Shown here in pieces: positions 7,729-51,111 of a stretch of DNA of 64,000 nucleotides (positions are counted from its first letter, which is position 1; each line of letters begins with the position of its first letter). The notes under the pieces were generated by a model, which was not told where the DNA came from, did not search any database, and saw only the letters and a program-made list of their open reading frames with translations. Both the position numbers and the translations under genes were made by a program. The stretch is from assembly GCF_039535095.1 (NCBI RefSeq), contig NZ_BAAAWN010000001.1, positions 5,022,001 to 5,086,000 on the forward strand. Reading direction: 5' to 3'. The DNA comes from Arthrobacter ramosus (GTDB lineage Bacteria > Actinomycetota > Actinomycetes > Actinomycetales > Micrococcaceae).

Positions 7729-7768
7729 GGCGGGCCGCGGCGCCGGCGAACTCCACAGTCCCTCCGGC
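7570..7768 (+). repeat. Left copy of duplicated kdpE 3' end / exporter tail
   Basis: This 199-bp segment recurs in direct orientation at 50912-51111. By eye there are about eight substitutions and a single 1-bp indel, roughly 95% identity. It covers the last ~53 codons of kdpE and 40 bp beyond its stop. Those 40 bp are the antisense of the last codons of the ABC exporter gene, which is complete only at the other copy. Similarity stops abruptly after CCTCCGGC at 7768. Confidence 0.9.
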
Positions 7769-19427: not shown

Positions 19428-20644
19428 GATCGTGACCCTCCGAACAGGACTTGCAGGGTCTCGGGAGCATAGCCCGGCGCTGGAACTGGAGCCGCCCGCC
19501 GCGGGGCTTGGCGGGTCTGTTGCTCGTGGTGGTCCAAGACGCGCCGGATCACTTCCTGCTTCCGCGGACTCAGGTAGATCTGCGTGGTCGTCAGCAGCGC
19601 GTGCCCGAGCACGAACTGGACATCGGTCAATGGCAGATTCGGGTCCTCAGCCATCCGGTAGGCCGCAGTATGCCGCAGTCCGTGGAGCGTCGCATCGCTC
19701 CCCGCCGCGCGGACCGCCCGTTCGAACATTCGGTGCACCGCATGGTAAGTCAGGGGACGATAGGGCTCACGCAGCGTCCACCAGACCGGCTGCGACCGTC
19801 CTTTTGGCAGGCGTCCTTGCATCTCGAGCTCATAGAGCCGCAACCAGACGAACGCATCAGGTGAAGCCGGCAGTTCCTGACTCGAACCCGAGCCCTTACG
19901 GATCACCGTGATCACCTGCCGGCCCGGATCAACGCCGCTGCGCAGGGCCGACAGTAGCTCCGAGGCCCGGGCCCCGGTCGAGACATAGAAAGCGACCATC
20001 GCGCGATCCCGGTGTGAGGGCAGGCGAGCAAAGATCTCGTTGAACTTCTCGTCAGGAATGCTGCGCGGGATCCTCGAGGCAAGTCGCGGCCGGAACAGGC
20101 CGCTCCGCTCGTTCCGGTAGGGCTCCATTGGATTGTGATGGGCATGCGCCCGACCCCCGCGCCGTGAACGCTCCAACGGGAACGGGTTGAGCAGTGGCCC
20201 AGCCCCGGTCTCGAGATGGAAGTCGTAGAACCGGCGCAGCACCGTCTCGCTGTGCGCCCGGACCGCCGGCGAATACGGGACCGGCTTCGACCAACGCCGC
20301 ACCGACTCATCGGGCCTGCGCCAATGAGATCGTTGCGGCTTGCCCGCCACCAGCATCCAGCGGGCGAAGTCACGGGCATCGACCCGGCTCGCCCGGTTCC
20401 AGTCGACCTCGATCGCCCAGAGGAAGCGGAACCACCGCAGCAGGTCCATCCCGTACGAACGCAGCGTCGAGGCCGATCTGCCCGCCGCCTGCAATTCATC
20501 GAAGAACGCCGACACCGCCGCGATCGGTACGCCTCCGGCATCAACAAGCCGACACGGCCTACCCGGGTCCCCTGTGCTCTCAACCGCCCCTACCAACGGC
20601 ACCGACAGTCGAGCCAGGTCTCTGTCCACGTCTTCGCTCATCAC
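19424..20644 (-). CDS. Tyrosine recombinase (TnpA-like)
   Basis: 406-residue integrase-family protein. A SAM-like N-terminal DNA-binding domain (AAGRSASTLRSYGMDLLRWF, ~50-70) precedes the catalytic domain, which has STGARASELL with the first Arg (~240), LHGLRHTAAY (~330) and LGHALLTTTQIYLSP with the Tyr (~360). It is the first gene of the two-gene unit and probably acts together with the 811-residue partner. The start is either of two adjacent ATG codons (20644 or 20641). Confidence 0.88.
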   Translation of the reverse strand: MMSEDVDRDLARLSVPLVGAVESTGDPGRPCRLVDAGGVPIAAVSAFFDELQAAGRSASTLRSYGMDLLRWFRFLWAIEVDWNRASRVDARDFARWMLVAGKPQRSHWRRPDESVRRWSKPVPYSPAVRAHSETVLRRFYDFHLETGAGPLLNPFPLERSRRGGRAHAHHNPMEPYRNERSGLFRPRLASRIPRSIPDEKFNEIFARLPSHRDRAMVAFYVSTGARASELLSALRSGVDPGRQVITVIRKGSGSSQELPASPDAFVWLRLYELEMQGRLPKGRSQPVWWTLREPYRPLTYHAVHRMFERAVRAAGSDATLHGLRHTAAYRMAEDPNLPLTDVQFVLGHALLTTTQIYLSPRKQEVIRRVLDHHEQQTRQAPRRAAPVPAPGYAPETLQVLFGGSRS

Positions 20645-22000: not shown

Positions 22001-22091
22001 ACGGTTCGGTGGCGCCGGGGTGTCCCCTAGTCTCCAGGGCTGGGTCCGGCGGGGAGGCGATTGATATTGCCGCCGCGCGCAACAACAGAGT

Positions 22092-22900
22092 TCAGGGTGC
22101 AGAAGTGGACGGGGCCGTTGTCTGCTTCTGCAGCCGGATGGCCCGGTCACGTTTGTCACGCAGGTGTCCCAAGGTAAGTTCCAGCCCGTCGACCTCGCCT
22201 TTCCACCCCTCCGTCTCTGCTCGTTCCCTTCTGGCGATCAGGTCGGCTTCCAGTTCGTCCAAGCGAAGAATCATCCGGGGTTCAACATGGAGCATGGGGC
22301 AGCGAACGCGGGCGTGCTCGTGCGCGCAGGGCGTGCCGTAAGGGCGGCCGCAGGCGCCCAGTTCAACTTTGCGTTTATCAAAATGATCCTCGAACTCTTG
22401 CCACTCGGCATCGGTGACGCGGGCGTATTCATGGTCCGGACGCATCGCCCTGCGGTTGGCCAGGTGCATCTGGTAGTGCCGGACGACGTCTTCATCGAAC
22501 ACGGCAACGTAGCCCTTTGGTGGTCTGCACGTTCGCGTGCCCCAACAGGGCGGCTCCGATGTGGATCGGAGGGCCGTTGTTGACCAGGTCGGTCGCGAAG
22601 ATCCGTCTGAAGTCGTGCGGGGTGAATGCAAGCCCTTCAAATTCGGGCCGGTCTTCGGCGGCCGCGGTGCAGGCTGTGCGCAGGAGTTTTGCGATCCGGC
22701 TGGTGCTGAACACTCCGCGCAGCGGCCCGCGGGAATGCTGGAAAAGGAAAGGAAGCGGCTCGCTGTGTTCCCGCTCCTGTGGGTCCCAACGGCGAATCAA
22801 GGGGATGGTCCCAAGACTTTCCTTGTGCCGGCGGATCACAAGCTCCGTGGCCGGCTGTTGGGTGCTGACGGTCCGTCGCAGAGCTCCTGCCCGTCATCAC
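22092..22900 (-). pseudogene. Broken copy of the TnpB-like recombinase, C-terminal part
   Basis: Homologous to the last ~280 residues of the 811-residue recombinase at 16992-19427. It shares TPHDFRRIFATDL, LGHANVQTTKG, GACGRPYGTPCAHEHARVRC and the coiled tail. A 1-bp insertion (AAAGGG where AAAGG is expected, near 22517) shifts the frame between the catalytic His region and the Tyr region. The N-terminal two thirds are missing. Confidence 0.85.
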
Positions 22901-30126: not shown

Positions 30127-30493
30127 GCTTCCCCTTCCCTCACCCAGTGGGGAGACCATCCTAGAAGCCAGGAACGACACCCAACCGGCCCGCCGCCGCA
30201 GCCCGGATGCGTTGTGCACCCGATACCCACAACCACCGCGGCAAACCAGCCACAGACTGTGGACAACCCGGGCCCGACCATCCACAGAAAAGACCCGGCG
30301 CGCCCCCGGAACCCGGGCGCGCCGCTGCGGTCCACCCAGATCCGGAGAACTCAGGTACGGGACAGGCCTAGCGGGCCAGATGGTCCGGAAACCGGACATC
30401 GGTGGGAGCCAGCCCCGGGCGCGCTCCTGGTGGAGTCCGTTATTCCGAGCCGTCGATATTCCAGTCTCCAGCCACGGGAGCTACCCAATGGGC
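30127..30493. other. Gene-free stretch
   Basis: Nothing recognisable; presumably the upstream region of the small membrane protein and the terminator region of the GT2 operon, though no hairpin stands out. Confidence 0.45.
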
Positions 30494-38216: not shown

Positions 38217-38585
38217 TCAGGGGATATCGAAGGGTGATGAAACCTCATCCGGGTGCAACTCGGGTCGGACCCGCAGCAGGCGCACTGGATGCCGGAACGA
38301 GCGGCCGGACCACGCCACGTCCGCCGAGACTTCCACGACAAGCGGTTCCACCAGCGTCAGACGCACCGTGCCCCGTTCTTTGCTGAACCTGTCCAACATC
38401 GTCTCGGTGATCTCTTCCGGCCACGGATGATCCCCGCGAGATGCCCGCAAATGCATCGCAAGGGATCTGCCGGCATGCGCCGACAGGGGAGTGGAGCGGC
38501 CGACAATCCGCAGCCGCCCGGCAACCGGAAGGCCGACCACCGCAGCCGTGGGCTGTGTTCGCGGGCCGATGACCGCCGCACACAC
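38217..38585 (-). pseudogene. ATP-dependent DNA ligase, C-terminal fragment
   Basis: Open frame from CAAVIGPRTQPTAAVVGLPV through WPEEITETMLDRFSKERGTV and VRLTLVEPLVVEVSADVAWS to the stop: the OB-fold end of an actinobacterial LigC/LigD-type ATP-dependent ligase. The catalytic Lys domain is absent. The preceding ~60 codons of the same ligase are at 50723-50910. The two pieces meet at a shared 5-bp CACAC, with the 12.1-kb element between them. Confidence 0.82.
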
Positions 38586-38806
38586 GTTCTGTACCCTGGA
38601 ATCTGTTGTTGCTTTGATTCGTCCCCGTCGATTCCGGCTCGGAAGTGACAATCGCGGTGAGGCGTCGGTTCAGCCGCTACCGGGCTCCGGCGCCGCTCGG
38701 GTGCCAGCCGTTCATGCCTGGGGGAATGGGCGGGTGATCAATGTCGGACACTGGATCGCAGGCCTCGCCTCATTAACGGCAGTCCGGTGGAAAGCCCCCG
38801 TGTCCG

Positions 38807-39034
38807 TCAGGCTCGCAGGGAATCTTCCATCCCCGGACGCGTGGACGAGGTAGACCCGTTGTGGCCTCGGGAGGGTGCGGCTCCCGCTTGTGCGTGGCGC
38901 GGCGTCGATGCGGCAGGGGCCGACCCAGCGGGTGGGCAGCAGGAAGAAGTGCAGGAGAGTTCTTGCTCGCGGCGGCGTTCCCGTTCCGCGGCTAGCTTGT
39001 TCTTTGCTTTTTTGCGCACTTTGCTGGCGGGCAT
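38807..39034 (-). CDS. Small basic protein
   Basis: 75 codons. The start MPASKVRKKAKNKLAAERER is lysine/arginine-rich and looks genuine. The remainder is Ser/Pro/Ala-rich with CTSSCC. No recognised family. It lies 130 bp after the CDF gene on the same strand, near the left end of the element. Confidence 0.4.
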   Translation of the reverse strand: MPASKVRKKAKNKLAAERERRREQELSCTSSCCPPAGSAPAASTPRHAQAGAAPSRGHNGSTSSTRPGMEDSLRA

Positions 39035-39164
39035 GAAGTGGTCTCTTTCTGGTCGTGTGTACCGCTTAAGGCGGCAGGATTGACGCCCCTGATCGCTGAG
39101 GGCGGGGATCCACGGATTTGTTGAGCAGGGGCTCACCCCGCAGTCCGGACTGCGGAACCTCGGT

Positions 39165-40004
39165 CTACGGGATCTCCCGGAGGCCCAATCGGGGCGATGG
39201 CGGGCTGCCGCGGCGGGCCGTTTCCGTTGAACATTCGGGGCAACACCCGTCGGTTGTCCCGGTGCTGGTCCCTGGTTCCACATCGTTTCCGGCTGACTTC
39301 GCTGTATCTGGCTGAACGACGTCGCAACCGTCATCGGCGTCCCGATCGACCGCCGATCCCTGATTGCCGGGTTGAGGAACAACGCAACAGGCCTCTCCGC
39401 GCCAGGCATCGATGCCTTCGCGGGCGGCGGCCAGGGCGATGACCATGGCGGCGCCCGCGTCGGCCCACCACCAGCCCAGGGCGCTGTTGAGCACCAGACC
39501 AGCGAGGAGAACAGCGGAGAGATAGGTGCAAAGCAGGGTCTGTTTGGAATCTGCTACCGCAGTCCGTGAACCGAGTTCACGGCCGGTGCGGCGTTGCAGC
39601 CAGGACAGGACGGGCATGACGGCAAGGCTCAGGGCCGCGATGACAATGCCCGGTGCCGAGCGCTGCGCTTCGCCACCGCCTGCAAGAGAGCGGAGCGAGT
39701 CCACGGTGACGAACGCGGCCAGCGCGAAGAAGGAGACCGCGATGATGCGCAGCGTCAGGTGCTCGCGTCGTTCGGGGTCCCTGGCGGAAAACTGCCAGGA
39801 CAAGGCAACGGCAGAGGCCACTTCGATCACCGAATCGAGTCCGAAGCCGATCAGTGCAGACGAGTCCGCGATGCCACCGGCCCAGAGTGCCACGACGGCT
39901 TCGATCACGTTATAGGTGATGGTTGCTGCTGCGAACAGGCGGACGCGGCGGCTCAGCACGGCGCGCCGGACGACGGAGGGCGAGGAAAGGCTGCTCGATG
40001 TCAT
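39165..40004 (-). CDS. Cation diffusion facilitator-like metal exporter
   Basis: 279 residues from the ATG that overlaps the cmtR stop (ATGA). A membrane domain of six helices (~20-205) has NVIEAVVALWAGGIADSSAL, GFGLDSVIEVASA and WWWADAGAAMVIALAAAREG, as in actinobacterial cation transporters. The C-terminal tail is unusual: Cys-rich (ACCVVP, DGCDVV, DGCCPECS) and acidic, a likely metal-binding extension. Co-transcribed with the CmtR sensor, so probably a Cd/Pb/Zn exporter. Confidence 0.82.
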   Translation of the reverse strand: MTSSSLSSPSVVRRAVLSRRVRLFAAATITYNVIEAVVALWAGGIADSSALIGFGLDSVIEVASAVALSWQFSARDPERREHLTLRIIAVSFFALAAFVTVDSLRSLAGGGEAQRSAPGIVIAALSLAVMPVLSWLQRRTGRELGSRTAVADSKQTLLCTYLSAVLLAGLVLNSALGWWWADAGAAMVIALAAAREGIDAWRGEACCVVPQPGNQGSAVDRDADDGCDVVQPDTAKSAGNDVEPGTSTGTTDGCCPECSTETARRGSPPSPRLGLREIP

Positions 40005-40327
40005 GCCAGGCACTCGCCGTCGGGGGCGCAGCAGGCCGGGTCCACGGCGAGCACGACGCCGAGCAGATCCGTGATCGCGCGGCCCAGCCGGGCGTCGGCG
40101 AGCTCATACCGGGTCCGCCGGCCGTCAGGAACGGCCACCACCAGCCCACACCCGCGAAGGCACGTCAGATGGTTGGACATGCTCTGCCGCGATACCCCGA
40201 GTGAGTCTGCGAGATCGGACGGGTAGCCGGGTTCCGTCGCCAGGGCCAGAAGGATCCGCGCCCTGGTCGGGTCGGAGACGGCGTAGCCGAAGCGAGCCAG
40301 CACCGGGGCATGCGTGAGGGTTTCCAT
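40001..40327 (-). CDS. cmtR: CmtR-type ArsR-family metal sensor
   Basis: 108 residues. Strongly CmtR-like: ARFGYAVSDPTRARILLAL, then SNHLTCLRGCGLVVAVPDGR with the two sensing Cys residues, then LLGVVLAVDPACCAPDGEC giving the third ligand. In Mycobacterium CmtR senses Cd(II)/Pb(II) and represses an exporter gene. The start is the ATG at 40327; an in-frame upstream extension is possible. It autoregulates, presumably through the palindromes just upstream. Confidence 0.9.
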   Translation of the reverse strand: METLTHAPVLARFGYAVSDPTRARILLALATEPGYPSDLADSLGVSRQSMSNHLTCLRGCGLVVAVPDGRRTRYELADARLGRAITDLLGVVLAVDPACCAPDGECLA

Positions 40328-40337
40328 GCAGTAAAAG

Positions 40338-40371
40338 TACATCGACCGATGTATACACGCAACTGTGTATT
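40338..40371. promoter_or_regulatory. Operators for the CmtR-type repressor
   Basis: TACATCG-AC-CGATGTA (40338-40353) is a perfect 7-2-7 palindrome. It is followed directly by ATACAC-GCAACT-GTGTAT, a second inverted repeat. Both lie just before the cmtR start. Confidence 0.75.
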
Positions 40372-40542
40372 GATCGCCACGCCAATTCCGGCGACAACAG
40401 GCCCTAGGTGAGCCGCAATGCGAACCTGGCCCACGAGCGGGGAAGGTCCGCGAGCCCGGAGCACCATTCCGCAGCCAAATCGGACGCCAAACAACAATGA
40501 AGGGCTACGGAGCGTTGCCACCGTGCCCTTCACTGTGCAGGA

Positions 40543-40842
40543 TCAGTGTTCGTCGTAATGGCCCTCGTGCTCGGCGTGCCGGTGGCCGTCATGGACGTAG
40601 TCCACATGGTCCCCGTGCTGGACGGCTTCATGTGTGCAGTCCGGTCCGCCGTGCTGGTGCTCGGCCGGGGTGTGCTCCGCCGGATCGTCATGTTCGTCGT
40701 AGTGGCCTTCGTGCTCGGCGTGCCGGTGACCGTCGTGGATGTAGTCCACGTGGTCCCCGTGCTGGATCGTGACGTGCTCGCAGTCCGGGCCGCCGTGCTG
40801 ATGCTCGACGAGTGTATGTTCAGCCTTGACTTCCTCGGTCAT
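40543..40842 (-). CDS. Histidine-rich metal-binding protein with an internal duplication
   Basis: 99 residues made of two near-identical ~45-residue units: EHQHGGPDCEHVTIQHGDHV plus DYIHDGHRHAEHEGHYDEH, then the same again with minor changes. His, Asp, Glu and one Cys per unit dominate. There is no signal peptide. It probably buffers or delivers zinc; such proteins accompany zinc uptake genes in actinobacteria. It lies alone between the cmtR and arsR/znu units. Confidence 0.8.
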   Translation of the reverse strand: MTEEVKAEHTLVEHQHGGPDCEHVTIQHGDHVDYIHDGHRHAEHEGHYDEHDDPAEHTPAEHQHGGPDCTHEAVQHGDHVDYVHDGHRHAEHEGHYDEH

Positions 40843-40879
40843 GGTGTCCTCCTTCGCTTACGCCGGGAGTGGACCGGCG

Positions 40880-41170
40880 CTAGCGTTCCTGGCTGTGTGT
40901 GATGGCGTCTTGGATGACGTGGGCCACGTGATGGTCGGTCAGGGAGTAGATCGTTTCGCGCCCGGACCTGGATGCCGTGACCAGATTGAGCCCCCGGAGC
41001 AACCGCAGATGCTGGGAGACCAAGGGCTGAGACAACTTCGTCGCCTCAGTCAGTGCGCTTACGGACGAGGGCTCGTGGGCAAGCGCGGACAGGATGAGAA
41101 GCCGCGAGGTGGCGGACAGGGCTTTGAACAGCTCTGCCGCCCCGGCAAGGGACTCCTCGTCTGGACTCAC
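40880..41170 (-). CDS. ArsR/SmtB-family regulator
   Basis: About 96 residues from the GTG at 41170, chosen because an 18-bp palindrome lies just upstream; the frame is open to 41239. Winged helix: LFKALSATSRLLILSALAHE, VSALTEATKLSQPLVSQHLR LLRGLNLV. The C-terminal helix has DHHVAHVIQDAITHSQER, the D-x-H...H pattern of the alpha5 zinc site of SmtB/CzrA-type sensors. It probably senses zinc. Confidence 0.86.
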   Translation of the reverse strand: MSPDEESLAGAAELFKALSATSRLLILSALAHEPSSVSALTEATKLSQPLVSQHLRLLRGLNLVTASRSGRETIYSLTDHHVAHVIQDAITHSQER

Positions 41171-41177
41171 ATAAAGA

Positions 41178-41195
41178 TATAAGCATGTTCTTATA
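41178..41195. promoter_or_regulatory. Operator of the ArsR/SmtB-type regulator
   Basis: TATAAG-CATGTT-CTTATA, perfect 6-bp arms around a 6-bp spacer, 8 bp upstream of the presumed GTG start. It matches the AT-rich dyads bound by SmtB-family repressors. Confidence 0.72.
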
Positions 41196-41260
41196 CCAGA
41201 GGGCAACGGTTTCCGCGCAAGCTCGAGGAATCCCGCCAAAATCCAACACCAAGCGACACG

Positions 41261-42193
41261 CTACCGGTGCCGGGAACCGGCGGTCGCGCGCGCTCCCTGC
41301 CTGGTTTCGGGGTTGGAGGAATCCGGCGACGCCGGGATGCGTGCGCGGCGCGCGAGGATCCAGGATGCTGTTGCCGCGGTGGCGTATTCGAGCGAGGCTG
41401 CGCCTGTGATGGTGAAGCTGGAGGGCAGGGTGGGCACCCAGTAGGCGAGGGCCAGCCCGGCCCAGACGGCGGCAACGGCAAGGGCGCCGGAAAGCCAGAA
41501 GGCGGTCCATGGTCTGTCGGTCAGCTTGCGGGCCGCGGCGGGGGGTGCGGCGAGGAGCCCGAAGACCAGGAGCGCGCCGACGAGCTGGCTGGCGGTGGCC
41601 GCGGTCGCGCCGAGGAGGGCCAGGAAGAAGGGGCCGAGGAACCGCACGGGGATCCCTCGGGCCGAGGCCCCGGCGGGATCGAGGGAGGCGAAGAGCAGGG
41701 GCCTGGCGATGGCGAGCAGCACCAGGATCAGGCCTGCCGCTGTCCATGTCTCGGATTGGGCCGCGGCGGAGCTGATGCCCAGGATCGAGCCGAAGAGGAC
41801 CTTCACGTTGGCGGTGCTGTCGCTCGTGCTGCTCCGGGTGGTGTAGATCGAGAGAAAGAACACCCCGAGCCCGAGGATCCAGGCAAAGGTCGTGCCGATG
41901 ACGACGTCGTCGGATGCTCCGCGTCCGCCGAAGAGGCCGAGGGCGAACCCGATTCCGATCGTCGCGGTGAACAGCCCGAGGCGTAGGTCCAGGCCGGCGG
42001 CGAGGGCGGCGAGGGCTCCGGTGTAGGCGACGTGGGAGAGTGCGTCGCCGGCGAATACCTGTCCGCGGAGGACCACGAAATGGCCGACGAGCCCGGCTAG
42101 CAGGGCCACCGCGGTCCCGGCGATGAAGGCGTTCTGCATGAAGGGCTCGGAGAGTATCCACCCTCCGGTGCCGAAGGCCGCGATGCCGGTCAT
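41261..42193 (-). CDS. znuB: Zinc ABC transporter permease (ZnuB family), second copy
   Basis: 310 residues, about eight membrane helices. Family sequences HFVVLRGQVFAGDALSHVAY and LLVFGLLAAPPAAARKLT are visible. The ATG overlaps the stop of the preceding permease gene (ATGA). Two permease genes in tandem after one ATPase are typical of actinobacterial Mn/Zn uptake operons, where they may form a heterodimer. The Arg/Pro-rich C-terminus is not conserved. Confidence 0.87.
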   Translation of the reverse strand: MTGIAAFGTGGWILSEPFMQNAFIAGTAVALLAGLVGHFVVLRGQVFAGDALSHVAYTGALAALAAGLDLRLGLFTATIGIGFALGLFGGRGASDDVVIGTTFAWILGLGVFFLSIYTTRSSTSDSTANVKVLFGSILGISSAAAQSETWTAAGLILVLLAIARPLLFASLDPAGASARGIPVRFLGPFFLALLGATAATASQLVGALLVFGLLAAPPAAARKLTDRPWTAFWLSGALAVAAVWAGLALAYWVPTLPSSFTITGAASLEYATAATASWILARRARIPASPDSSNPETRQGARATAGSRHR

Positions 42194-43080
42194 GCCCACA
42201 CTCCCGCGTTGGGGCGAGCCCGGCGGCGGCCGTGGTGCTCGCGGGCCGCCTGCCAGGCCGTGGCGGCGACGAAGGCGGCGAAGGCCAGGGAGGCAACCCA
42301 GAACCCGATGGGGTATGGCGAGAAATATGCGATCGCTTCCCCGGCCCAGGTCGCGGCCAGGGCGATCACGACCGAGAGGGCGATCCCCAGGACCGGCCTG
42401 GCGGTGAGCCGGGTCGCGGTGGCTGCGGGGGCGACGAGCAGGGAAAACACGAGAAGGCTCCCGGTGACTTGGCTGGTGCCGGCCGCGGCGACTCCCAGGA
42501 GGACGAGGAAGGCGGCCGAGACCGCCCGGACGGGGACGCCGCGTGACCCGGCGATGGCTGGGTCGATCGAGGAGAAGAGCAGTGGCCGGGCGATGCTTGC
42601 CAGGGCTGCGAGGCTCACCAGGCCGGCGACGGCCAGCAGGGCCACCTGGCCGGTGGTGACCCCGGTGATGGTTCCGAAGAGGAGGTTGTTCAGGCCGCCC
42701 AGGAAGCCCTTGTAGAGGCTGACGAACAGGAACCCGCAGGCCAGGGCGAAGGCTTGGACTGTGCCGATGGCTGCTGATTCCTCGCTGGCGCCTCCGAGCT
42801 CGCCCCCTGCCCGGCCGGTGGCGGGAAGTGCAGCGATGACCAGCGCGCCGCCGATGCAGGCCACAAAGTATCCAACTGCAGGGCTCAGGCCAAGCAACGT
42901 CGCGCCCGCGGCTCCGGGGAATCCGATGACGGCCAGGGTGTGGCCGGCGAATGATTGCCGCCTCTGGACCATGAACCAGCCGATCGCACCGGCCGCAACG
43001 GCCACGATGGTGCCGGCCTGGAAGGCATTTACCATGAAGGGATAGGCGAAGAGCTCCGCGAGGAAGCCTGCGGGATTCAC
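42190..43080 (-). CDS. znuB: Zinc ABC transporter permease (ZnuB family), first copy
   Basis: 296 residues starting at the GTG that overlaps the ATPase stop (GTGA). Helices include FMVNAFQAGTIVAVAAGAIG WFMVQRRQSFAGHTLAVIGF and the later GSLLVFSLLVAPAATA. It differs clearly from the next gene (different loop AASEESAAIG-type region), so the pair is not a recent duplication. Confidence 0.87.
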   Translation of the reverse strand: MNPAGFLAELFAYPFMVNAFQAGTIVAVAAGAIGWFMVQRRQSFAGHTLAVIGFPGAAGATLLGLSPAVGYFVACIGGALVIAALPATGRAGGELGGASEESAAIGTVQAFALACGFLFVSLYKGFLGGLNNLLFGTITGVTTGQVALLAVAGLVSLAALASIARPLLFSSIDPAIAGSRGVPVRAVSAAFLVLLGVAAAGTSQVTGSLLVFSLLVAPAATATRLTARPVLGIALSVVIALAATWAGEAIAYFSPYPIGFWVASLAFAAFVAATAWQAAREHHGRRRARPNAGVWA

Positions 43081-43910
43081 GCGTGCACCTGAGGACCGTG
43101 GGGGTGTTCGGGAGGGGCGTCGGGCTGGCCGATGACGACAAGCCTGCCCGCCCGGTCGCGCAGGACGTCTACCGGTGTGCTGTAGAGGGCCGTCAGGGCC
43201 TCGGGTGTGATCACTTGCTCCGGGGGACCGGTGATTGCGCTGCCGTGCCCGAGGTAGACCACCTGGTCGAGGTAGGGAAGGATCGGGTTCACATCGTGGG
43301 CGACCATCAGCACCGTGACACCCTCGCTGCGGCACACGCCTTGGATGAGGGCGCTCACGGATCTCTGGTTGGTCACGTCCAGGGAGTCGAGTGGCTCGTC
43401 CAGGACCAGCAGCTTTGGGCGGCGCACGAGCGCCTGGGCGATGAGCAACCGCTGCTGCTCGCCGCCGGAACACTGCCCGATCGGCCGGTTGGCATAGTCC
43501 TCGGCGCCGACGAGCCGGAGAGTTTCCCGCACCCGCGCAGTGGCCGCGCGGCCCTTCCGGCCTAGCAGCCAGCTTGGCAGAGGGGTGCCCCAGCGTTCGC
43601 CGTCCAGGCCCAGGCGCACGATATCGGTCCCGCGGATGCGCACGGACGATCCGAAGGCGTGCCGCTGGGGCAGGTAGCCGATCGTGGACCGGTCCTGCCC
43701 TGGCTTCCTGCCGAAAACGGCGACGGTCCCGGAGCTGACTGGAACCAGGCCGAGGATGGTCTTCAGCAAAGTCGACTTCCCGGCCCCGTTGGGTCCGAGG
43801 ACGGCCACGAACTGGCCGGCGTCGACCGTGAAATCGACGCCGGCCCAGACGGTTCGGCCCCCGACCGCAGCGGCCGCGCTGCGGAAGCGGACCGCCGGTT
43901 CGTTTTTCAT
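43077..43910 (-). CDS. znuC: Zinc ABC transporter ATP-binding protein
   Basis: 277 residues. Walker A GPNGAGKSTLLKTILGL (~40), signature CSGGEQQRLLIAQALVRRP (~150), Walker B LLVLDEPLDSLD and the H-loop MVAHDVN. The C-terminal ~40 residues end in PPEHPHGPQVHA, a small His-containing tail. Coupled to the permease (GTGA) and to znuA (the ATG overlaps the znuA TGA). Confidence 0.92.
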   Translation of the reverse strand: MKNEPAVRFRSAAAAVGGRTVWAGVDFTVDAGQFVAVLGPNGAGKSTLLKTILGLVPVSSGTVAVFGRKPGQDRSTIGYLPQRHAFGSSVRIRGTDIVRLGLDGERWGTPLPSWLLGRKGRAATARVRETLRLVGAEDYANRPIGQCSGGEQQRLLIAQALVRRPKLLVLDEPLDSLDVTNQRSVSALIQGVCRSEGVTVLMVAHDVNPILPYLDQVVYLGHGSAITGPPEQVITPEALTALYSTPVDVLRDRAGRLVVIGQPDAPPEHPHGPQVHA

Positions 43911-44845
43911 TTCCCGGTGGCCTGCGCCAGCGCCGTCTCGAGGGACTTGAGTTGCGTTGTCTGCCAGTCCTGGAAGGTGGCGCCCTTGGGGCTCAAGGTT
44001 TCGGTGACTGCGCTGACAGGGATGCCGGCGGCCTTGGCTGCGTCGACCTGCGCGGCGACGTCGGGGGTGGAGTTCTGGCTGTTGAACACGTAGACCTTCA
44101 GCTGCTTGCCCGTGATCTGGGACTTGATCGTCGCCAGATCTGCCGGCGACGGGTCGGTCCCCTCGCTGATGGCCTTCAGGAAGCTCGCCGGTGTGATGAG
44201 GTTCAGGCCAAGCGCGGATGCCATCGGGGCAAAGATGCTCTCGCTCGCACCGACCGGCGTTCCGGCGTACTTTGCCTTGATCTCGGCGATCGTGGCGTGG
44301 TAATCCGCCAGTGCCTTCGAATCGAACTCGGCCCGCTGGGCGTCGAAGTAGGCCGCGCTCGACGGATCGGCCTTCTTCAGTGCCGCAGTAATAGCGTCCG
44401 CGACTTTGCCCACGCTCTCCGGTGCGTACCACTGGTGCGGGTTGCCGTCATCCGGGGTCCCGGTCACAGCCCCCACCTCCACCACCGACCGGTCGCTGGT
44501 CGGGTTCGCGGCCACGGCCTTTGCCGCCCAGCTGTCATAGCCGACCCCGTTCTCAACAAACACCTTGGAGGCCGCGATCGTGCGAGCGTCTGCCGGGGTG
44601 GGCTCGTAAGCGTGCGGGTCCGTGTCCGGGTTGTTGATGATCGAGGTCGCCTGCACGTGGGTCCCCCCGAGCTCCGAAAGGATGCTTCCCCACGCGTCCG
44701 TGCTGGCCGCCACGGGGATCACCTGGACCGATGCGGCAGAACTTCCGGCGGCCGGAGACGAAGCGGATGCTCCCGTACCGCAGCCGGCAAGGGCGATCGC
44801 CGCGAGGGCGGCAACAAAAATGGCAGAGGGAAATCGACGGTACAT
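43907..44845 (-). CDS. znuA: Zinc-binding lipoprotein (ZnuA family)
   Basis: 312 residues. Lipoprotein signal with the lipobox LAGC (Cys22). Metal-binding positions of the cluster A-I family: PHAYEPTPAD (His ~77), NPHQWY (His ~137), and a Glu/Ser near GASESIFAP where Mn/Zn proteins have a third ligand. The long His-rich loop of proteobacterial ZnuA is absent. First gene of the znuACBB operon, preceded by a Zur box. Confidence 0.9.
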   Translation of the reverse strand: MYRRFPSAIFVAALAAIALAGCGTGASASSPAAGSSAASVQVIPVAASTDAWGSILSELGGTHVQATSIINNPDTDPHAYEPTPADARTIAASKVFVENGVGYDSWAAKAVAANPTSDRSVVEVGAVTGTPDDGNPHQWYAPESVGKVADAITAALKKADPSSAAYFDAQRAEFDSKALADYHATIAEIKAKYAGTPVGASESIFAPMASALGLNLITPASFLKAISEGTDPSPADLATIKSQITGKQLKVYVFNSQNSTPDVAAQVDAAKAAGIPVSAVTETLSPKGATFQDWQTTQLKSLETALAQATGK

Positions 44846-44904
44846 CAGGGGTCCATTCTTCGGGGCTGGGGGGCCGGTGTGTGCCTTACACTCAAATAGT
44901 TACA

Positions 44905-44919
44905 TGAGAATGGTTATCA
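44905..44919. promoter_or_regulatory. Zur box between znuA and zur
   Basis: TGAGAATGGTTATCA fits the actinobacterial Zur consensus TGANAATNNTTNTCA exactly in its conserved positions. It lies 60 bp upstream of znuA and 65 bp upstream of the divergent zur gene, so it can control both. Confidence 0.82.
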
Positions 44920-44983
44920 TTGTCAATCAAACTGAACCGCCCTCCGGTCGGGGGCTGGAGCGCACCGAGGGGGCGTCGCGGCT

Positions 44984-45385
44984 GTGAACAGACGAAAGAC
45001 CCGCAAGCAGGAGGCCGTGCGAGCGGCACTGGAGGGCCGGGAAGGATACCTGAGCGCCCAGGCCCTGCATCGGATCCTTGAGCAGCAGGGCACACCGATC
45101 GGCCTCTCCACCGTCTACCGGAATCTCGCCGGACTCTGCGAAGCAGGCCTTGCCGACGTGCTCCACGGCCCCGACGGCACCACCCTGTACCACACCTGCC
45201 ACTCGCCTCAGGGAATCCATCACCACCTCGTCTGCCGCTCCTGTGGCCGGACCGTCGAACTGGAGCTGACGGAAGCCGACGCTGCCCTCCGCACGGCGGC
45301 CGCAGAGCGGGGTTTCGTCCAGGCAGACCCCGCCTGGGATGTCTTCGGCCTGTGTGCAGCCTGCAGCACGCACGACGACCGATGA
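44984..45385 (+). CDS. zur: Zur, Fur-family zinc-uptake regulator
   Basis: 133 residues from a GTG. It has the winged helix STVYRNLAGLCEAGLADVLH and the family metal sites: HHHLVCRSCGRTVEL gives the first CxxC, and FGLCAACSTHDD the C-terminal CxxC. His residues HSPQGIHHH match the sensory site. It represses znuACBB when zinc is plentiful. Divergent from znuA over a shared Zur box. Confidence 0.9.
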   Translation: MNRRKTRKQEAVRAALEGREGYLSAQALHRILEQQGTPIGLSTVYRNLAGLCEAGLADVLHGPDGTTLYHTCHSPQGIHHHLVCRSCGRTVELELTEADAALRTAAAERGFVQADPAWDVFGLCAACSTHDDR

Positions 45386-45459
45386 GTTTAGGCGGCTTCA
45401 GTCGCTCGCGCGCCCTGATCCTGCACGTCCTCAAACCGGACGACGGCCAGGGCGGCGAC

Positions 45460-45596
45460 ATGGAACGGAACGCGCCGTGCCGCAGGGCCTTGGCTGTCAG
45501 TTCCCTGAACCACCGATAGCCCAGATTCAGCCAGGAAGATGAAGTGGGGTGAAATGCAGGGTGGAACCTTGGATGTCTTTCCAGCCAGGTCCCCAA
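45460..45596 (-). pseudogene. IS630-family transposase fragment
   Basis: One frame reads WLERHPRFHPAFHPTSSSWL N followed by GYRWFRELTAKALRHGAFRS, the C-terminal catalytic segment of IS630-type DDE transposases. The frame is lost on both sides; no ends are recognisable. It lies between zur and the recombinase module. The rest of 45386-45643 holds nothing else. Confidence 0.7.
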
Positions 45597-45643
45597 TCTC
45601 GAAGTCGCAAAAGTATGACTGTGAGTTGGGAGGGGCGGTTAAT

Positions 45644-46027
45644 TCACAGCTGGGATGGGAATGCCCCCCGGCGGGAGAGGGTATCTCTGAGCGAGTCTCT
45701 TTCCTCGAGCACATCCAGGAGGGCAGTCGCATAGGTTTTGAGCCGTTTGTCCAAGTCACAGTTGGCTGCGGTGAGCCGGGCATTCCGCTCCTTTTCGTCG
45801 GCTAGGGCCTTCCGCAGGTTCTCGACCTCGGGTTTTGTCCTGTTCAGCTCTCTTGCCCGCTCCTGGAACCTTGAGCTGATGTCGGGGTTGTCGTGGGTGA
45901 GCCGGTGGCGCTTGACGCCGGCGAGTTCGACGAGGCGGAGGCTTGTGAGGGGGCCGGGCACGCGGCCGTCCAGGAGATCGTCCATGCTGCGTTCGAGGGC
46001 TTGGCGGATTTTTTCCTGGGTCGTCAT
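45644..46027 (-). CDS. TnpC-like coiled-coil protein
   Basis: 127 residues. A short helix-turn-helix-like N-terminus (TSLRLVELAGVKRHRLTHDN) is followed by a coiled coil (ELNRTKPEVENLRKALADEK ERNARL...). The size, position downstream of the large recombinase and composition match the third gene (tnpC/DUF6262) of Tn554-like transposons, which stimulates or orients insertion. Confidence 0.78.
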   Translation of the reverse strand: MTTQEKIRQALERSMDDLLDGRVPGPLTSLRLVELAGVKRHRLTHDNPDISSRFQERARELNRTKPEVENLRKALADEKERNARLTAANCDLDKRLKTYATALLDVLEERDSLRDTLSRRGAFPSQL

Positions 46028-47915
46028 GGTTCTGATGGGTTTCGATGATGCTTTGGATGGACTCTCTTATGGCGGTCGTGCGCTGGTGACGGATCAGCGG
46101 GGCCAGCGAGTCGTCCGGAATGCCGGCGAGCCGGGCGCGGAGTTCGTCGATGTCAGAGCCGGTGCGGGCGATGTTGGCGCAGTCGGGTTGGCATCCGGTC
46201 AGGACCGGGCCGCCGCCATCCGTGGCCGGGATGCAGCGTGCTTTGGCGCGGTCGAATACGCAGTGGAGCCCGCGTCCGGGGTAGACCTGGAGTACGGGGT
46301 CTTGGAGGAGTTTTCGGGCTTGGCGGCCGGTGAGGAGGACCTTCCCAGCGAATTTCTCGCGTGCTACCCTGACGCGTTGTTCGAGTTCGCCGGCGGCCGG
46401 TCCGCTGAGGTGTCCTCCGGTGTTGAGGTACGCTTCGAGGTCTGTGGCCTGGTCGATCCGTTCAAGCCATTGTTCGAAGGCGAGGTCGTCCGGGAAGCCC
46501 GAGGCGTGGTTTCCGGCGTAGCCCTGGGTGACGTGGACGTTGATATGGCCGTATTGGATTGCGGCGGCGACCAAGCCGCGGGGCCGGCGCACGATGTGCC
46601 AGGCGAGGGTTCGGCGGAAGCGGCTGGGGGCGATGCGCCCGTCGGAGTCATTCGGGATGGTGTCCGGACGGCTGTTCTCGCGGCAGAAGCCGTTGACCCA
46701 TTCCGCGAACGAAGCGATGTCTCCTGCGATTTGCGTGGCTGTCCGGGCCTGGCCTGGCCGCGTTCTTAACCGGCGGGTCCTCGGCCGGTTTTCCTTGGGT
46801 CGGATGCTCCTGCCGAAGAGAAAGCGTCCGTCACCGAGTTCCTCGGCGATGGTGAAGGCTTGGGCGACGAGGGGGTGGATGACCCACGGGTTCTCACGCG
46901 TTGCGCCTTCTTCTGCCTTGCCGCCGTGGGATCCGGTTGCTCTTTTCCACCGCGTGCCGGTGAGTGTCCACAGGTCCCGCTCGGGATCGTGGTGGAGGCA
47001 CCCGGTTGTGAGGGTCAGGACCTCTCCCGGTCGCATGCCCGAGAGGTAGGCGATCACGATGTAGCAGGCGGTGTGTGTCCCGTCGGTCAGCACGCGGCCG
47101 GGAAGCCCGAGGCCTGCCGCGCGCAGCAGGGCCAGGACATGAACCAGCTTTTGATGCCGGTCCCTCTCATACAGCCTTCGGCCGGCCTGTCGGTATCCGC
47201 GTCCTCCCATGGTGGTCCTACGGTATTCGTCGAAGTTTGGGACGATGTCTGCCGAGATCTCTTCGATGAACCGGATCGCCCATGCCAGCAGGGGGACGAG
47301 CGTTGCATCGCCGATCCGGGGTATGCGGTTGTGCGGCTGGACGTCGGTGCGTGCGCCCAGCAGCTCTCTGGCGGGCGCATCGTCCCAAGGTGGAGCGTCC
47401 GGCATCGCCAGCCGCGGCGGAACCACGTCTCGGTAAGCCCATAACCGCCGCACTTCCGCGACGGAGTGCCGCCTGGACCCGTAGGAGACCCCCGAATCGC
47501 CCAGGAATGCCAAGTACTCATCGAGGCGCGCCGCGTCCAGCTCCGCGAAAGATTCCAGACCCCGTCCCGCAGCCCAGATGATCAGCCGCTCGATAGGTCC
47601 CTTCACGAACGACACCGATCGCAAGGAGCAGCGGATTCCGGCGCGGGCGGATGGCAGGGCGCGCGGATGGTCTTCGTTGATCAGCTGCCACAGGTACCCT
47701 TTGACCGCGTCCCGCCATGGTTGCGGAAGCCGTTTGAAGTTGATGCTCGTGGAGTCGCTGTGGTCCTCGAAGATCCCGGCAGTGAGGTCCCAACGGTCAT
47801 CGCCGAACCGTGACAGCGTCTCCGGGGCGATCTCCGGCCGGATCGGTCGGCCGAGCAGGACCGGAGTACCGGACACCGGTGCCGGCTGGCCGGTGTCGAT
47901 GGCGTAAAAGCTCAT
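45756..47915 (-). CDS. Large tyrosine recombinase (TnpB-like)
   Basis: 719 residues. The catalytic C-terminal domain has YLSGMRPGEVLTL (first Arg, ~295), PSRFRRTLAWHIVRRP (HxxR-like, ~430) and YGHINVHVTQGYAG (Tyr, ~460). The frame continues some 90 codons beyond the normal end and overlaps tnpC by 272 bp. That tail is Pro/Arg-rich and is probably just the shadow of tnpC, which suggests loss of the original stop. The catalytic region is intact. Confidence 0.8.
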   Translation of the reverse strand: MSFYAIDTGQPAPVSGTPVLLGRPIRPEIAPETLSRFGDDRWDLTAGIFEDHSDSTSINFKRLPQPWRDAVKGYLWQLINEDHPRALPSARAGIRCSLRSVSFVKGPIERLIIWAAGRGLESFAELDAARLDEYLAFLGDSGVSYGSRRHSVAEVRRLWAYRDVVPPRLAMPDAPPWDDAPARELLGARTDVQPHNRIPRIGDATLVPLLAWAIRFIEEISADIVPNFDEYRRTTMGGRGYRQAGRRLYERDRHQKLVHVLALLRAAGLGLPGRVLTDGTHTACYIVIAYLSGMRPGEVLTLTTGCLHHDPERDLWTLTGTRWKRATGSHGGKAEEGATRENPWVIHPLVAQAFTIAEELGDGRFLFGRSIRPKENRPRTRRLRTRPGQARTATQIAGDIASFAEWVNGFCRENSRPDTIPNDSDGRIAPSRFRRTLAWHIVRRPRGLVAAAIQYGHINVHVTQGYAGNHASGFPDDLAFEQWLERIDQATDLEAYLNTGGHLSGPAAGELEQRVRVAREKFAGKVLLTGRQARKLLQDPVLQVYPGRGLHCVFDRAKARCIPATDGGGPVLTGCQPDCANIARTGSDIDELRARLAGIPDDSLAPLIRHQRTTAIRESIQSIIETHQNHDDPGKNPPSPRTQHGRSPGRPRARPPHKPPPRRTRRRQAPPAHPRQPRHQLKVPGAGKRAEQDKTRGREPAEGPSRRKGAECPAHRSQL

Positions 47916-49440
47916 GGGATCTCCAACTCATTTTCAAGGAGGGCTCGGACAAGGCGGGCGTCTTCGGCGGAGGCTCGCCCGGCCCCCGCCTGGACATCTG
48001 CGCGCTGGAGCTGAAGGACGTCGTCGAGCCGATCGGCCGCCGGGGCGAAACGCCGATCCCACTCGGACGGCGTTATCTCGGTGCGTCGGGCTCTGAGCTC
48101 AGTGAGCATCAGGGCCTGGACCGGCACATGCCTGGGCTCGGAACGCGAGCACGGGCAGGTGAGGCAAAGGAGGAACGATGCCGTGCACGGCCGCCCCTGC
48201 TCGCTGTAAGGGCTGTGCTCGTTGTCCACGCAGGCCGATCCGACCGTGTCCAGTCTCCCGGCGAGCACTTTCCCAAGGATCTCCTCGCTGACTCCGAACC
48301 TCGCCGCTACCTCTGCCGGGTCGTGAAGGGCTGCGCGGCAGTCTTCATCGCTGAGGGTGCGGTCCAGGTTCTCGGCGCGGATCCTCTCGACCTCGCCTTT
48401 GAGAGCTACTGCCACGACATCCTGATAGCTACTGAGCGACGTTCGGTCACGGACGAGGTTGACAGAGGCAAGCGTGGCGCTGGCCTGGGCAACCGGGCGC
48501 TGGTGAAGCTCGAGGAAGGTCCGCCGGATCCGACGGGAATCCACGCGCCGGGGCATGCCGTCCCCATCTGAAAAACCCTCCAGCGGCCCGAAGAGGCCCA
48601 CAGCCGGCGTGCGGTAGCCCAGATTCCCGGGGGTTCCCAACCGATAGCTGAAGGAGTGGTAGACGATCAGATCGGGATAGGCGAGGTACTGCCGGGCGCC
48701 ACGGCCGAACTCGAGGGCGATCTCGTAAACGCCGTGGGCGGAGCCGTAGTCGTCCCGGTCCACCAATGGTCTCCGCGCGGCAGAGAGGGTCAGGTCCATC
48801 TCGGACCGCAGCGGTCCCGCGCCGTGGTTTGCTGCCACGTGTGACCAGGGCAGGAACCTCACCGAGGGCGGTCGACACGGAATGCTCGGCACTCATTCCC
48901 AGCACCGTCGATGCGTTCAGGCCCGTCATGCACATCATCAGGATTGCCATGGCCTCGGCTTCGTGCCTCAGAGGGTGCAGTTCCGAGACCAGGTCCGCGC
49001 AAGACGAGTACCGTACCTTGCCGCTGTCGCGTCGTGGGACGCCCCCGTGAACTGCGATATATGCCAGCTTCGCTGCCCTCGTTCCCGCCCGGAAACAGGC
49101 GTCTCCCGGCCGGGGGTCCCCGGACAGGTATCAGTCGGCCTCGGCCCGGGCAGCCCGGATACGCGTCACCGCCGGCTCGGACGATGCGCCTGGCCGCCCG
49201 CCGGATCTGGCGGAACTCAGCCCCGGTGTAGGCCTGGACAGCGGCGCGGGGGGTCGTCGCCCGGACCGGGGTGTAGAGGGCATCGCGGAACTCGTTCGGG
49301 ACACCGTCGACGCCTCGAAGCACGGTCGTGAGGGCGAGCACGACCGCGTTTCCTTCCCGTGTCCCCAGCATCCGCAGCTCGAGGACATATCCGGCCCGCA
49401 GCTCGCCCACGCATGCGGCCGGTCTTGGCCTGGTCAGGAT
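47912..49440 (-). pseudogene. Second tyrosine recombinase, broken by frameshifts
   Basis: Coherent protein sequence passes through three frames: GELRAGYVLELRMLG to EFRQIRRAARRIVRA; then AVTRIRAARAEAD, a TGA near 49136, YLSGDPRPGD... to MAILMMCMTGLNASTVLG; then LPWSHVAANHGAGPLRSEMD to the ATGA-overlapped end at 47912. At least two frameshifts and one stop are therefore present. The Cys cluster (LLCLTCPCSR) near the end is retained. Confidence 0.7.
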
Positions 49441-50660
49441 GAGGTTCGCGAAGGAACGCAGGGTTTCGAAGAGCCCGTCGGCGGACGGAATCGTCCGCCT
49501 CGTCCCCGCAGTCCGATGAAAGGCTCAAGATAGATGTTCCTGGTCGTGTTCACATCCGAATGCCCGAGCATCGTCTGCACCAGAGACCATGTGTCGCCGA
49601 ACTGCTCCCGGAAGTCCTCCAGACCGTCCGGTCCCTTGATGAACAGCAGGCTCCGGTCGGCCGGGGACAGGTCATTCAGGTTCGCGAGCACGGTACTTCC
49701 ACCCGGTTCGGCAATCCGCACCAGGCCACGGTCGGTTATCCCCTGGACAATCCGCCTGCCGGCCAGGCTTTCGTACAAGCCGCTCTCGAGGCCGCGGAGG
49801 ATCGCGGCGGCCCGGTCGGTCTGGACGTAGTTCCACATGCCGTCGAGCGACTCGCGGCCCATCCAGTACCGTCGGCTCCGGCCGCCCTTTGCGCAGCTGC
49901 CCGCCAGGCGAGCCGTGGCGTAGGCTTTCGCGGCACCGTCGGTAGGGAGCTCGATGAGGCAAATCGAGGCGAGCTCCTGTATGCGCAGTCCGGTCCTGTA
50001 GAGGCCGTCAACGAATGCCGCATCCCGGGTCTGGGACCGCGGCCTCCAGCGCGTCTTCTCCGCCCCGCCGGGCTCCTTTCCGTGGATCCCGACGTCACGC
50101 CACAGGCGGAACGCTCCTGGAGAGAGCCATTTGACGTCTGCTGCACGGATCGCCGAGGCTCTGGCGCGGGGGTCTCGCACCGCGACCCGGTTCCCTACCC
50201 ACGCTTGCTTTTGAGCCGCGGGAAGGAGCCGGTTCGTGCCGAGCCGGTCTGCGGCCCAGTCGTGGAAGGCAAGGATTGCGGCAAGGTCGCCCTGCCATGT
50301 CGCGCCGGAAATACGACGCGGATTATCCAAGGCCGAGGTCCTCCAGAAGCGATAGTCGAATAGATCGTTTTCGGCTGCCCCTGTCCACTCCTTGCTCCGC
50401 GTCTGGAGGAAGTTGAACCAGGTCCGAAGGGCAAATGCGTACTGTCGGTTCGTTCCCGCCGTCAGATTCCGCATCCGCCCGCTGGCAAAGAACTTGTTGC
50501 CCGCGTCATGCGGCACGCCTTCGTGATCCAGGAACAACGGGCGCCCTGCATCGAGCCGCACACCCAGCCGGCCAACGCGGGCCAGGAGACCGTCATCCCG
50601 TGCTGGGCCGGAGTCCTTGGCGAAGTGCAGCCACCACGTCCCGCCGCCAGATTCGACCAT
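49434..50660 (-). CDS. TnpA-like tyrosine recombinase lacking its HxxR segment
   Basis: 408 residues. The N-terminal core-binding region (NRQYAFALRTWFNFLQ) and the catalytic Arg box (YRTGLRIQELASICL) are present, as is LGHSDVNTTRNIYLEPF with His and Tyr. The stretch that should hold HxxR is missing: FIKGPDGLE runs directly into DFREQFGDTW, an in-frame deletion of roughly 80 residues by comparison with the family. The C-terminus after EPF also looks frameshifted. Probably inactive. Confidence 0.7.
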   Translation of the reverse strand: MVESGGGTWWLHFAKDSGPARDDGLLARVGRLGVRLDAGRPLFLDHEGVPHDAGNKFFASGRMRNLTAGTNRQYAFALRTWFNFLQTRSKEWTGAAENDLFDYRFWRTSALDNPRRISGATWQGDLAAILAFHDWAADRLGTNRLLPAAQKQAWVGNRVAVRDPRARASAIRAADVKWLSPGAFRLWRDVGIHGKEPGGAEKTRWRPRSQTRDAAFVDGLYRTGLRIQELASICLIELPTDGAAKAYATARLAGSCAKGGRSRRYWMGRESLDGMWNYVQTDRAAAILRGLESGLYESLAGRRIVQGITDRGLVRIAEPGGSTVLANLNDLSPADRSLLFIKGPDGLEDFREQFGDTWSLVQTMLGHSDVNTTRNIYLEPFIGLRGRGGRFRPPTGSSKPCVPSRTSS

Positions 50661-50722
50661 GGCCCGACAGTACGACCGATCTCATGAATCCTCCTTGCAA
50701 CACGTACGAAATGGCGAGAGTT

Positions 50723-50910
50723 CACACGACGTCCACGGACCGGCGGTACTTCACCTTAACCACTGCTTCTTGCCGCCCACGTAAACCTGGGAAGCCCCCT
50801 TGCAGACAAGGCCTTCAATGCCGGTAGCTGGCATTTCCTCGAACCAGGACACCGGCAATTCCCGGTCCTTGGTCACTGGGAGAGGTTCAATGGGGCAGAC
50901 CAGTCCCGTG
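50723..50910 (-). pseudogene. ATP-dependent DNA ligase, internal fragment
   Basis: Reads TGLVCPIEPLPVTKDRELPV SWFEEMPATGIEGLVCKGAS QVYVGGKKQW and, after a 1-bp deletion, KVKYRRSVDVV: the end of the adenylation domain of a LigC-type ligase. At its 3' end it meets the zinc element at CACAC. At its 5' end it is cut at the kdpE duplication boundary (50911). Confidence 0.8.
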
Positions 50911-50911
50911 C

Positions 50912-51111
50912 CAGCAGCTCCTCAGCGAGGTCTGGGGGCCTGGCCTACGCCAAGGAAGCCAACTACCTGCGCGTGTACATGGCGCAGCTCCGGCGGAAAC
51001 TGGAAGCGGAGCCCGGGAACCCGCGCCACTTGATCACCGAGGTGGGGATCGGATACCGGTTCATGCCGTGAGGCGGGCTGCGGCGCCGGCGAACTCCACA
51101 GTCCCTCCGGC
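50912..51111 (+). repeat. Right copy of duplicated kdpE 3' end (frameshifted remnant)
   Basis: Second copy of 7570-7768. It starts inside kdpE at CAGCAGCTCCTCAGCG, carries one extra G (TGGGGGCC for TGGGGCC) that breaks the kdpE frame, and keeps the kdpE stop at 51068-51070. The exporter stop codon lies at 51061-51063 on the other strand, so the two genes overlapped tail to tail. Confidence 0.9.

Follow-up and report, generated by a model that had tools for sequence, protein, structure and literature searches.

What split a DNA ligase gene in Arthrobacter ramosus, how did a block of metal genes come to lie inside it, and can the intervening DNA still move? These questions are raised by bases 5,022,001-5,086,000 (64,000 nt, hereafter the window; other coordinates are relative to it) of the forward strand of contig NZ_BAAAWN010000001.1, the 5.25-Mb single-contig genome GCF_039535095.1. 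Here the gene of an ATP-dependent DNA ligase is split by an element of 12.1 kb (38586-50722) that has the core sequence CACAC on either side. The element was confirmed as a real, well-delimited, site-specific island, and it is very likely that the locus as a whole is a GInt-type island in the ligase gene which carries a metal-homeostasis block as cargo and whose recombination (gin) genes have since been damaged.

The core copies are located at 38581-38585 (cargo end) and 50723-50727 (gin end). Read in ligase sense, the gin-side junction is GACGTC-GTGTG-AACTCTCGCC and the cargo-side junction is ACAGAAC-GTGTG-TGCGGCGG. An intact 343-aa ligase of another genome of the genus (G421, locus L054) reads through GACGTC-GTGTG-CGCTGCGG (V-D-V-V-C-A-A-V), demonstrating that the predicted empty site, with the core present once, exists in nature. 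Both ligase pieces of the window are on the minus strand and were aligned to this homologue by tblastn: the C-terminal piece (38217-38585 including the core copy; 80% to the L054 ligase) corresponds to residues 222-338 over 38232-38585, and the upstream piece (50723-50920) to residues 156-221 over 50725-50920. The initial annotation had claimed that the two pieces meet exactly at a common CACAC, that the joined protein reads VDVV-CAAVIGP and that the element with its cores spans 38581-50727. The junction letters and the VDVVCAAVIGP found straight over the site in the intact ligase bear this out, the island proper being 38586-50722.

Uninterrupted ligases and matching element ends in other genomes had also been proposed as checks; the former exist, as in G421, and the latter were found at both ends in Arthrobacter ISL-30 (L021) and Paenarthrobacter OM7 (L009) and at one end in Arthrobacter Hiyo8 (L008). 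In ISL-30 and OM7 the ligase is split at the same codon and in the same orientation by elements with the same two ends. The ISL-30 junctions are GACATC-GTGTG-AACTCTCGCC on the gin side and ACAGAAT-GTGTG-CGCGGCC on the cargo side, and those of OM7 are GACGTG-GTGTG-TTCTCTCGCC and ACAGAAG-GTCTG-CGCGGCC. In Hiyo8 the gin-side half alone is visible, with the letters around the core identical to those of the window. Integration is thus site-specific, with a 5-bp core and the same site in the three copies that retain both ligase halves (window, ISL-30, OM7), and a chance match of CACAC was rejected since two relatives show both halves and one shows one half. A scan of genome contigs with a single protein matched ISL-30 and Hiyo8 only; within the host genome, a DNA search found the island once, plus two short matches.

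The cargo-side end of the island, GTTCTGTACCCTGGAATCTGTTGTTG (38586-38611), recurs at the far ends of the elements of OM7, ISL-30, G462, G438 (contig C48) and G458, and is therefore common to elements in other targets too. In shuffled DNA the motif is matched 0.3 times per 64 kb (50 shuffles). The window holds three matches, two of them at 38587 and 22080 and the third, of poor quality, at 12034, and the search also matched positions other than known ends in L055, L099, L109, L119 and L024. Cargo at the same ligase site varies: ISL-30 carries an MFS transporter, and OM7 a nitrilase-family protein, an asparaginase and a LacI-type regulator. The umuDC genes of OM7 were rejected as cargo, as they lie outside the island, beside the ligase.

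The split of the ligase gene proposed by the initial annotation is real, although the upstream half has decayed. Its homology begins at about residue 156 and is spread over three reading frames, the 5' part is gone, and the end of kdpE, present a second time as a 200-bp copy (50912-51111; 95.5% to 7570-7768), is fused to the remnant at about 50912, as seen by repeat comparison. The window ligase is now a truncated, frameshifted fragment. The kdpE gene itself is located at 7051-7728. As 48 of the 121 genomes sampled from the genus match the C-terminal piece (E <= 1e-8), many of the matches lying in open frames of about 340-380 aa, the ligase is regarded as an accessory gene; the host genome has two further ATP-ligase domain matches, in open frames of 374 and 876 aa. 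A second ligase remnant of the host (G000:C1:2697797-2697934; L003, L068) starts directly past the codon targeted by the island, at residue 3 of the downstream piece or residue 223 of the ligase, and may be what an earlier insertion left behind. At 30374-30424, 17 residues match the ligase tail (E 0.002), perhaps a further scrap.

From the gin end inwards, the island contains an operon of three recombinase-type genes and one small gene, degraded but recognizable and all on the minus strand: the tyrosine recombinase gene ginA (49515-50660), a second gin gene (ginB, 47915-49509), a third encoding a large recombinase (46029-47915), and ginD (45644-46027), an open frame for a small helical protein of 127 aa with 81% identity to GinD of ISL-30. 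The cargo follows directly, ginD ending at 45644 and zur at 45385. It starts with a gene for a Zur-like Fur-family regulator on the plus strand (44984-45385, 133 aa, PF01475), followed after a 138-bp gap by minus-strand genes for a znuA-type metal-binding protein (43907-44845, 312 aa), a znuC-type ABC ATPase (43077-43967, PF00005; 80% to its counterpart in Sinomonas, locus L074), two ABC-3 permeases (42190-43080, 82% to L074, and 41261-42199, start uncertain, 79%; both PF00950), an SmtB/ArsR-type metal regulator (40880-41239, start uncertain; PF01022, NF033788 above cut-off), a His-rich protein (40543-40842, 99 aa), a CmtR-like ArsR-family regulator (40001-40342, 113 aa, 92% to a protein of FB24) and a CDF-family metal efflux protein (39165-40013, 282 aa; PF01545, 69% to an FB24 plasmid protein). 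The cargo frames checked are all open. The His-rich protein, for which Pfam gave no match, has a homologue in L074 and consists of two tandem units (40547-40681 and 40691-40825) that are 82% alike in DNA. NF047906 scored 128.9 bits against a cut-off of 150, and the regulator is therefore named CmtR-like only.

To trace this block, a DNA search was made with 40900-45400, which matched five of 204 genomes of the genus, host included. G438 carries 38894-45386 at 92.7% identity (a 6.5-kb block) and G498 carries 40543-45392 at 94.4% without the CDF-cmtR pair, while G464 and G388 share only the smtB/His-rich part. In the 20-kb stretches around the G438 and G498 blocks the gin, ligase and UmuC queries found no match; a gene with a CopC domain lies beside the G438 block. 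More distant clusters occur in G150 (ZnuA 82%) and G162 (57%); no other genome except the host passed E 1e-70 in a 395-genome sample of the family that left out G438 and G498. The znu clusters of Sinomonas (L074) and G162 (L075) share the order znuA-C-B-B and have smtB-type and His-rich genes nearby, with a divergent Zur-like gene in L074, but differ from the window in that the queries used gave neither a gin match nor a CDF-cmtR pair. The CDF-cmtR pair is found at 78-81% DNA identity on plasmids of Arthrobacter and Pseudarthrobacter, and a protein search found a 96% identical ZnuA on a single metagenome contig that, at 2.4 kb, is too short to show gene context. G464 (L066, G464:C1:1605000-1621000) has a broken ligase gene with, a few kb away at most, another Zur-/ZnuA-like pair (33-35% identity) and a close copy of the smtB/His-rich genes. 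ZnuA, CDF and Zur gave no match in 14 stretches with other gin elements (at most 20 kb each, partly cut).

It is conceivable, if doubtful, that the gin element entered the ligase first and the zinc block was inserted later by another process. The block has its own edges in the comparison with G438, at about 38894 and just past zur (45386), and exists outside gin elements. However, it starts close behind ginD and leaves about 310 bp to the end of the island, an arrangement like that of GInt cargo in the accessible part of their description (PMC5385486), and no transposase match was found among the scanned cargo genes. A later insertion and a block carried in by the island may overlap as accounts.

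With the block taken as island cargo, the next point is the metal that it handles. The initial annotation described a zinc uptake regulon; the gene set is there, whereas the word zinc rests on the relatives of the regulator and on family names. As judged from these, zinc is likely the transported metal. The znuA-type protein scored 163.8 bits against a cut-off of 29 for PF01297 (7e-48), and its predicted ligands H78, H137 and E202 are invariant in four aligned proteins, including the other ZnuA of the host at 1.38 Mb. This ligand pattern, solved relatives of the binding protein that include Mn-binding proteins, and one NCBIfam match to a Mn protein would fit an importer of manganese or another metal, which we regard as unlikely: the adjoining regulator has 3mwm and FurB (2o03) as closest solved relatives, the latter named zinc uptake regulator, the best profile matches are the zinc proteins AztC and AztB (both under cut-off), and the Glu is common to all four homologues. 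In the gap between zur and znuA, the sequence TGAGAATGGTTATCATTGTCA (44898-44925) is retained in L074 with two changes and is one of three matches with three mismatches that a Zur consensus gave in the window; it is a tentative candidate for a regulator operator.

For the recombination module, the four-gene GInt type, related to but distinct from Tn554, appears to be the best explanation. In ISL-30 all four gin genes are open and encode proteins of 494, 597, 701 and 130 aa; Pfam gave an integrase domain in the first protein, no such domain in the second and, below the cut-off, a weak match in the third. Alignments of seven proteins each show R226, H390, R393, H394, H440 and Y450 retained in the first and R365, R504, R505, H527 and Y536 in the third, while no such catalytic set is conserved in the second. 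GInts, strand-biased circularizing integrative elements (SEs), RITs and Tn554 are set apart as classes in the accessible part of PMC10214605, and a rule given in that of PMC10121019 asks that a GInt have one or more integrases with homology to those of GInts and an arrangement of three integrases plus a short gene; the window element shows this arrangement. The accessible passages of PMC5385486 describe GInts, like the window element, as having an operon for three recombinase-type proteins plus a small helical protein, with the cargo directly after it, a short far end, one fixed target and short imperfect repeats, and report that all four gin genes are required for excision and integration in Pseudomonas. 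The published far end measures 0.2-0.4 kb, compared with about 310 bp here (up to the conserved block edge at 38894). According to the same passages, the repeats are 10-17 nt, longer than the 5-bp core; the targets are the start of an ABC transporter gene and the ends of ssb and ribonucleotide reductase genes, unlike the mid-ligase site; the cargo comprises copper and mercury resistance, with no zinc import set mentioned there; and the word Actinobacteria is absent from the main text. SEs likewise have four genes, in the order intA, tfp, intB, srap, which fits the order of types here as likened by description, and their second gene (Tfp), as here, lacks a catalytic set; unlike the host, the carriers reported in the part of PMC10214605 available are Gammaproteobacteria. 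The RITs of that source have three recombinases of 315-410 aa, all catalytic, and were ruled out by proteins of 494, 597 and 701 aa, the second of which lacks the set.

The initial annotation called the module Tn554-like, and kinship with Tn554 holds. Tn554 is also site-specific and has tyrosine recombinases and a small helper gene, and one classification places ginABCD subfamilies within the Tn554 family (PMC8865565). However, Tn554 has three genes (tnpABC) and no Tfp/GinC-like gene (PMC10214605, accessible part), compared with four here including an extra recombinase-like protein without the catalytic set; a Tn554-family transposon in the strict sense was therefore rejected as improbable. 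In a collection of 72,556 plasmid records, GinA relatives occur in 167 (E <= 1e-20), led by Streptomyces, Agrobacterium, Sphingobium and Rhodococcus, with four-gene gin operons in two Streptomyces records and one Serratia record. The window itself has a second pair of tyrosine recombinase genes at 16992-20644 (minus strand; 406 and 811 aa, PF00589), near which lie an rve transposase-like frame and an IstB gene, and a sequence like the gin far end occurs at 22080-22106; these features are possibly a second, different element.

The initial annotation regarded the island as a mobile element. Its insertion was site-specific, but the window copy is probably immobile, as three segments of the gin genes have been lost and ginB is frameshifted. 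Compared with Hiyo8, OM7 and ISL-30, 218-219 bp are missing near 49620, which removes about 73 GinA residues around 349-415 including H390, R393 and H394, i.e. the HxxRH box. A loss of 307-309 bp near 49510 takes the terminal part of ginA together with the beginning of the second gin gene, whose remaining homology lies in three frames. Near 47075, the third gene has lost 208-210 bp, a gap that the Hiyo8 alignment splits as 101 + 107. That these losses stem from misassembly of an intact island is very improbable: although they are seen in one assembly only, the genome is a single contig, and three separate losses plus frame changes are concentrated in one module, with open frames in the cargo.

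Several observations weigh against the interpretation as a damaged GInt-type island with zinc cargo. The gin losses are read from one assembly; ginA and ginD of OM7 and ginA-C of Hiyo8 also span several frames, and among the four copies at the ligase-221 site only ISL-30 has all four gin genes open. The two cores of OM7 differ by one mismatch (GTCTG vs GTGTG). The GInt assignment rests on layout, with the published Gin proteins likened by description; the protein without the catalytic set is encoded by the second gene here, while the papers name GinC, and the gene order may be nearer to that of SEs. At the 3' end no clear AT-richness is seen (GC 0.646 over 38586-38893 and 0.527 over 38586-38640). 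In the cargo, the CmtR identity is below the curated score, and the predicted H-H-E ligands of the binding protein would also fit a metal other than zinc. Taken together, the element is probably best read as a broken GInt-type island with metal cargo frames still open.

To place the island among its relatives, GinA matches were collected from the genus and found in 14 of 206 genomes, corresponding to 16 gin elements (the three rows of Hiyo8 counted as one, G407 and G438 with two each). Three are located at ligase residue 221 (the window and ISL-30 with both halves, Hiyo8 with one) and three at ligase residues 194-196, namely G407 with both halves (L100, L055; core GGTCAA) and G357 and G418 with the gin side only; these latter target genes are about 28% identical to the query and are called ligases on that match alone. 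Three elements interrupt UmuC at residue 109 with both halves (G462, G438, G458) and two at residue 18 (the second of G407 with both halves, G447 with one). Thus 11 of the 16 lie at four precise positions, 7 of them with both halves. Two more (G490, G217) are placed next to umuC but not at a mapped position, so that 13 of the 16 adjoin a ligase gene or umuC, and the remaining three were assigned to no target (G421, beside an SRAP-domain frame; the second element of G438; G123). In the family sample, GinA was matched in 10 of 395 genomes, of which G000, G217 and G357 are among those counted in the genus. Outside the genus, judged by one side, G226 and G050 fit UmuC 109 and G262 fits UmuC 18; G052 is located beside umuC, G269 beside a DprA-domain frame, and G221 and G099 were assigned to no target.

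We take the ligase 194-196 site to be ligase motif IV (EGLV|VK), the window site (VDVV|C) to lie a few codons past ligase motif V, and the UmuC sites to be the Y-family polymerase motifs VDVN|CFY and VY|SIDE. By these motif names and roles, three of the four positions would lie inside DNA for catalytic motifs. The umuC gene adjoins the ligase gene on the OM7 plasmid (L009:3636-6469) and in G226 (L023:12518-14221), placing several gin target sites in one small repair-gene cassette. G407 (contig C1; L100 to L055, L099) carries two gin elements of different lineages in a stretch of about 60 kb: the one in the ligase, at residue 194/195, measures about 30 kb, and the other interrupts umuC at residue 18.

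A GinA tree of 22 rows was built, from which Hiyo8, G217 and own duplicates were left out; G458 is partial, OM7 and the window were cut to one piece, G421 and the second element of G438 are long branches of unsure place, and some target labels rest on one side only. On this tree the eight target labels need 7 changes, the minimum possible; shuffled labels, which ignore relatedness, average 15.2 changes, with none of 200 shuffles as low as 7. Ligase-221 elements form one clade (100/99) whose nearest neighbor is the UmuC-109 element of G226 (98/99), ligase-194 elements form a separate clade, and UmuC-109 needs three changes. The island is best seen as belonging to a group of elements that insert into accessory DNA-repair genes. 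We lean slightly towards the idea that gin islands of Micrococcaceae repeatedly land in catalytic-motif DNA of such genes, gain transport via plasmids, and shift between umuC and ligase sites with GinA lineage. Because motif DNA is common to gene families, one island lineage could enter ligases that are only about 28% alike; since repair genes can ride plasmids, islands would obtain transport and sacrifice a dispensable gene for it.

By analogy with the family, the products of the four-gene gin operon would recombine an island circle with one short target, so that the island lands at a fixed point and in a fixed orientation and leaves a short core repeat. Here the target was the DNA for VDVV|CAAV in the ATP-dependent ligase, which relatives use with other cargo. 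The island holds the ABC importer, the Zur-like and SmtB-type regulators, the His-rich protein, and the CDF protein with its CmtR-like regulator, and the later loss of gin gene pieces most likely fixed this block in the chromosome. The block may serve to import zinc when it is scarce, under Zur-type control, and to export surplus or toxic divalent metal under CmtR/SmtB-type control.

In the titles and abstract beginnings of the papers listed from the openly accessible literature, neither gin elements in ligase or umuC nor a zinc import set as gin cargo was found. Zur-regulated genes have been reported on a Vibrio island (PMC8248653, accessible part), and zinc-response genes on islands are therefore not new as such. 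The locus places gin-type islands in Arthrobacter at a new target for which the sites before and after insertion are clean, and identifies as island cargo a whole block for metal import and export that also exists outside the island. It further catches a late stage in the life of an island, with the cargo open and the moving genes broken. Finally, islands landing in the motif DNA of ligase and umuC genes offer a rule of site choice and site change in such elements that can be tested.

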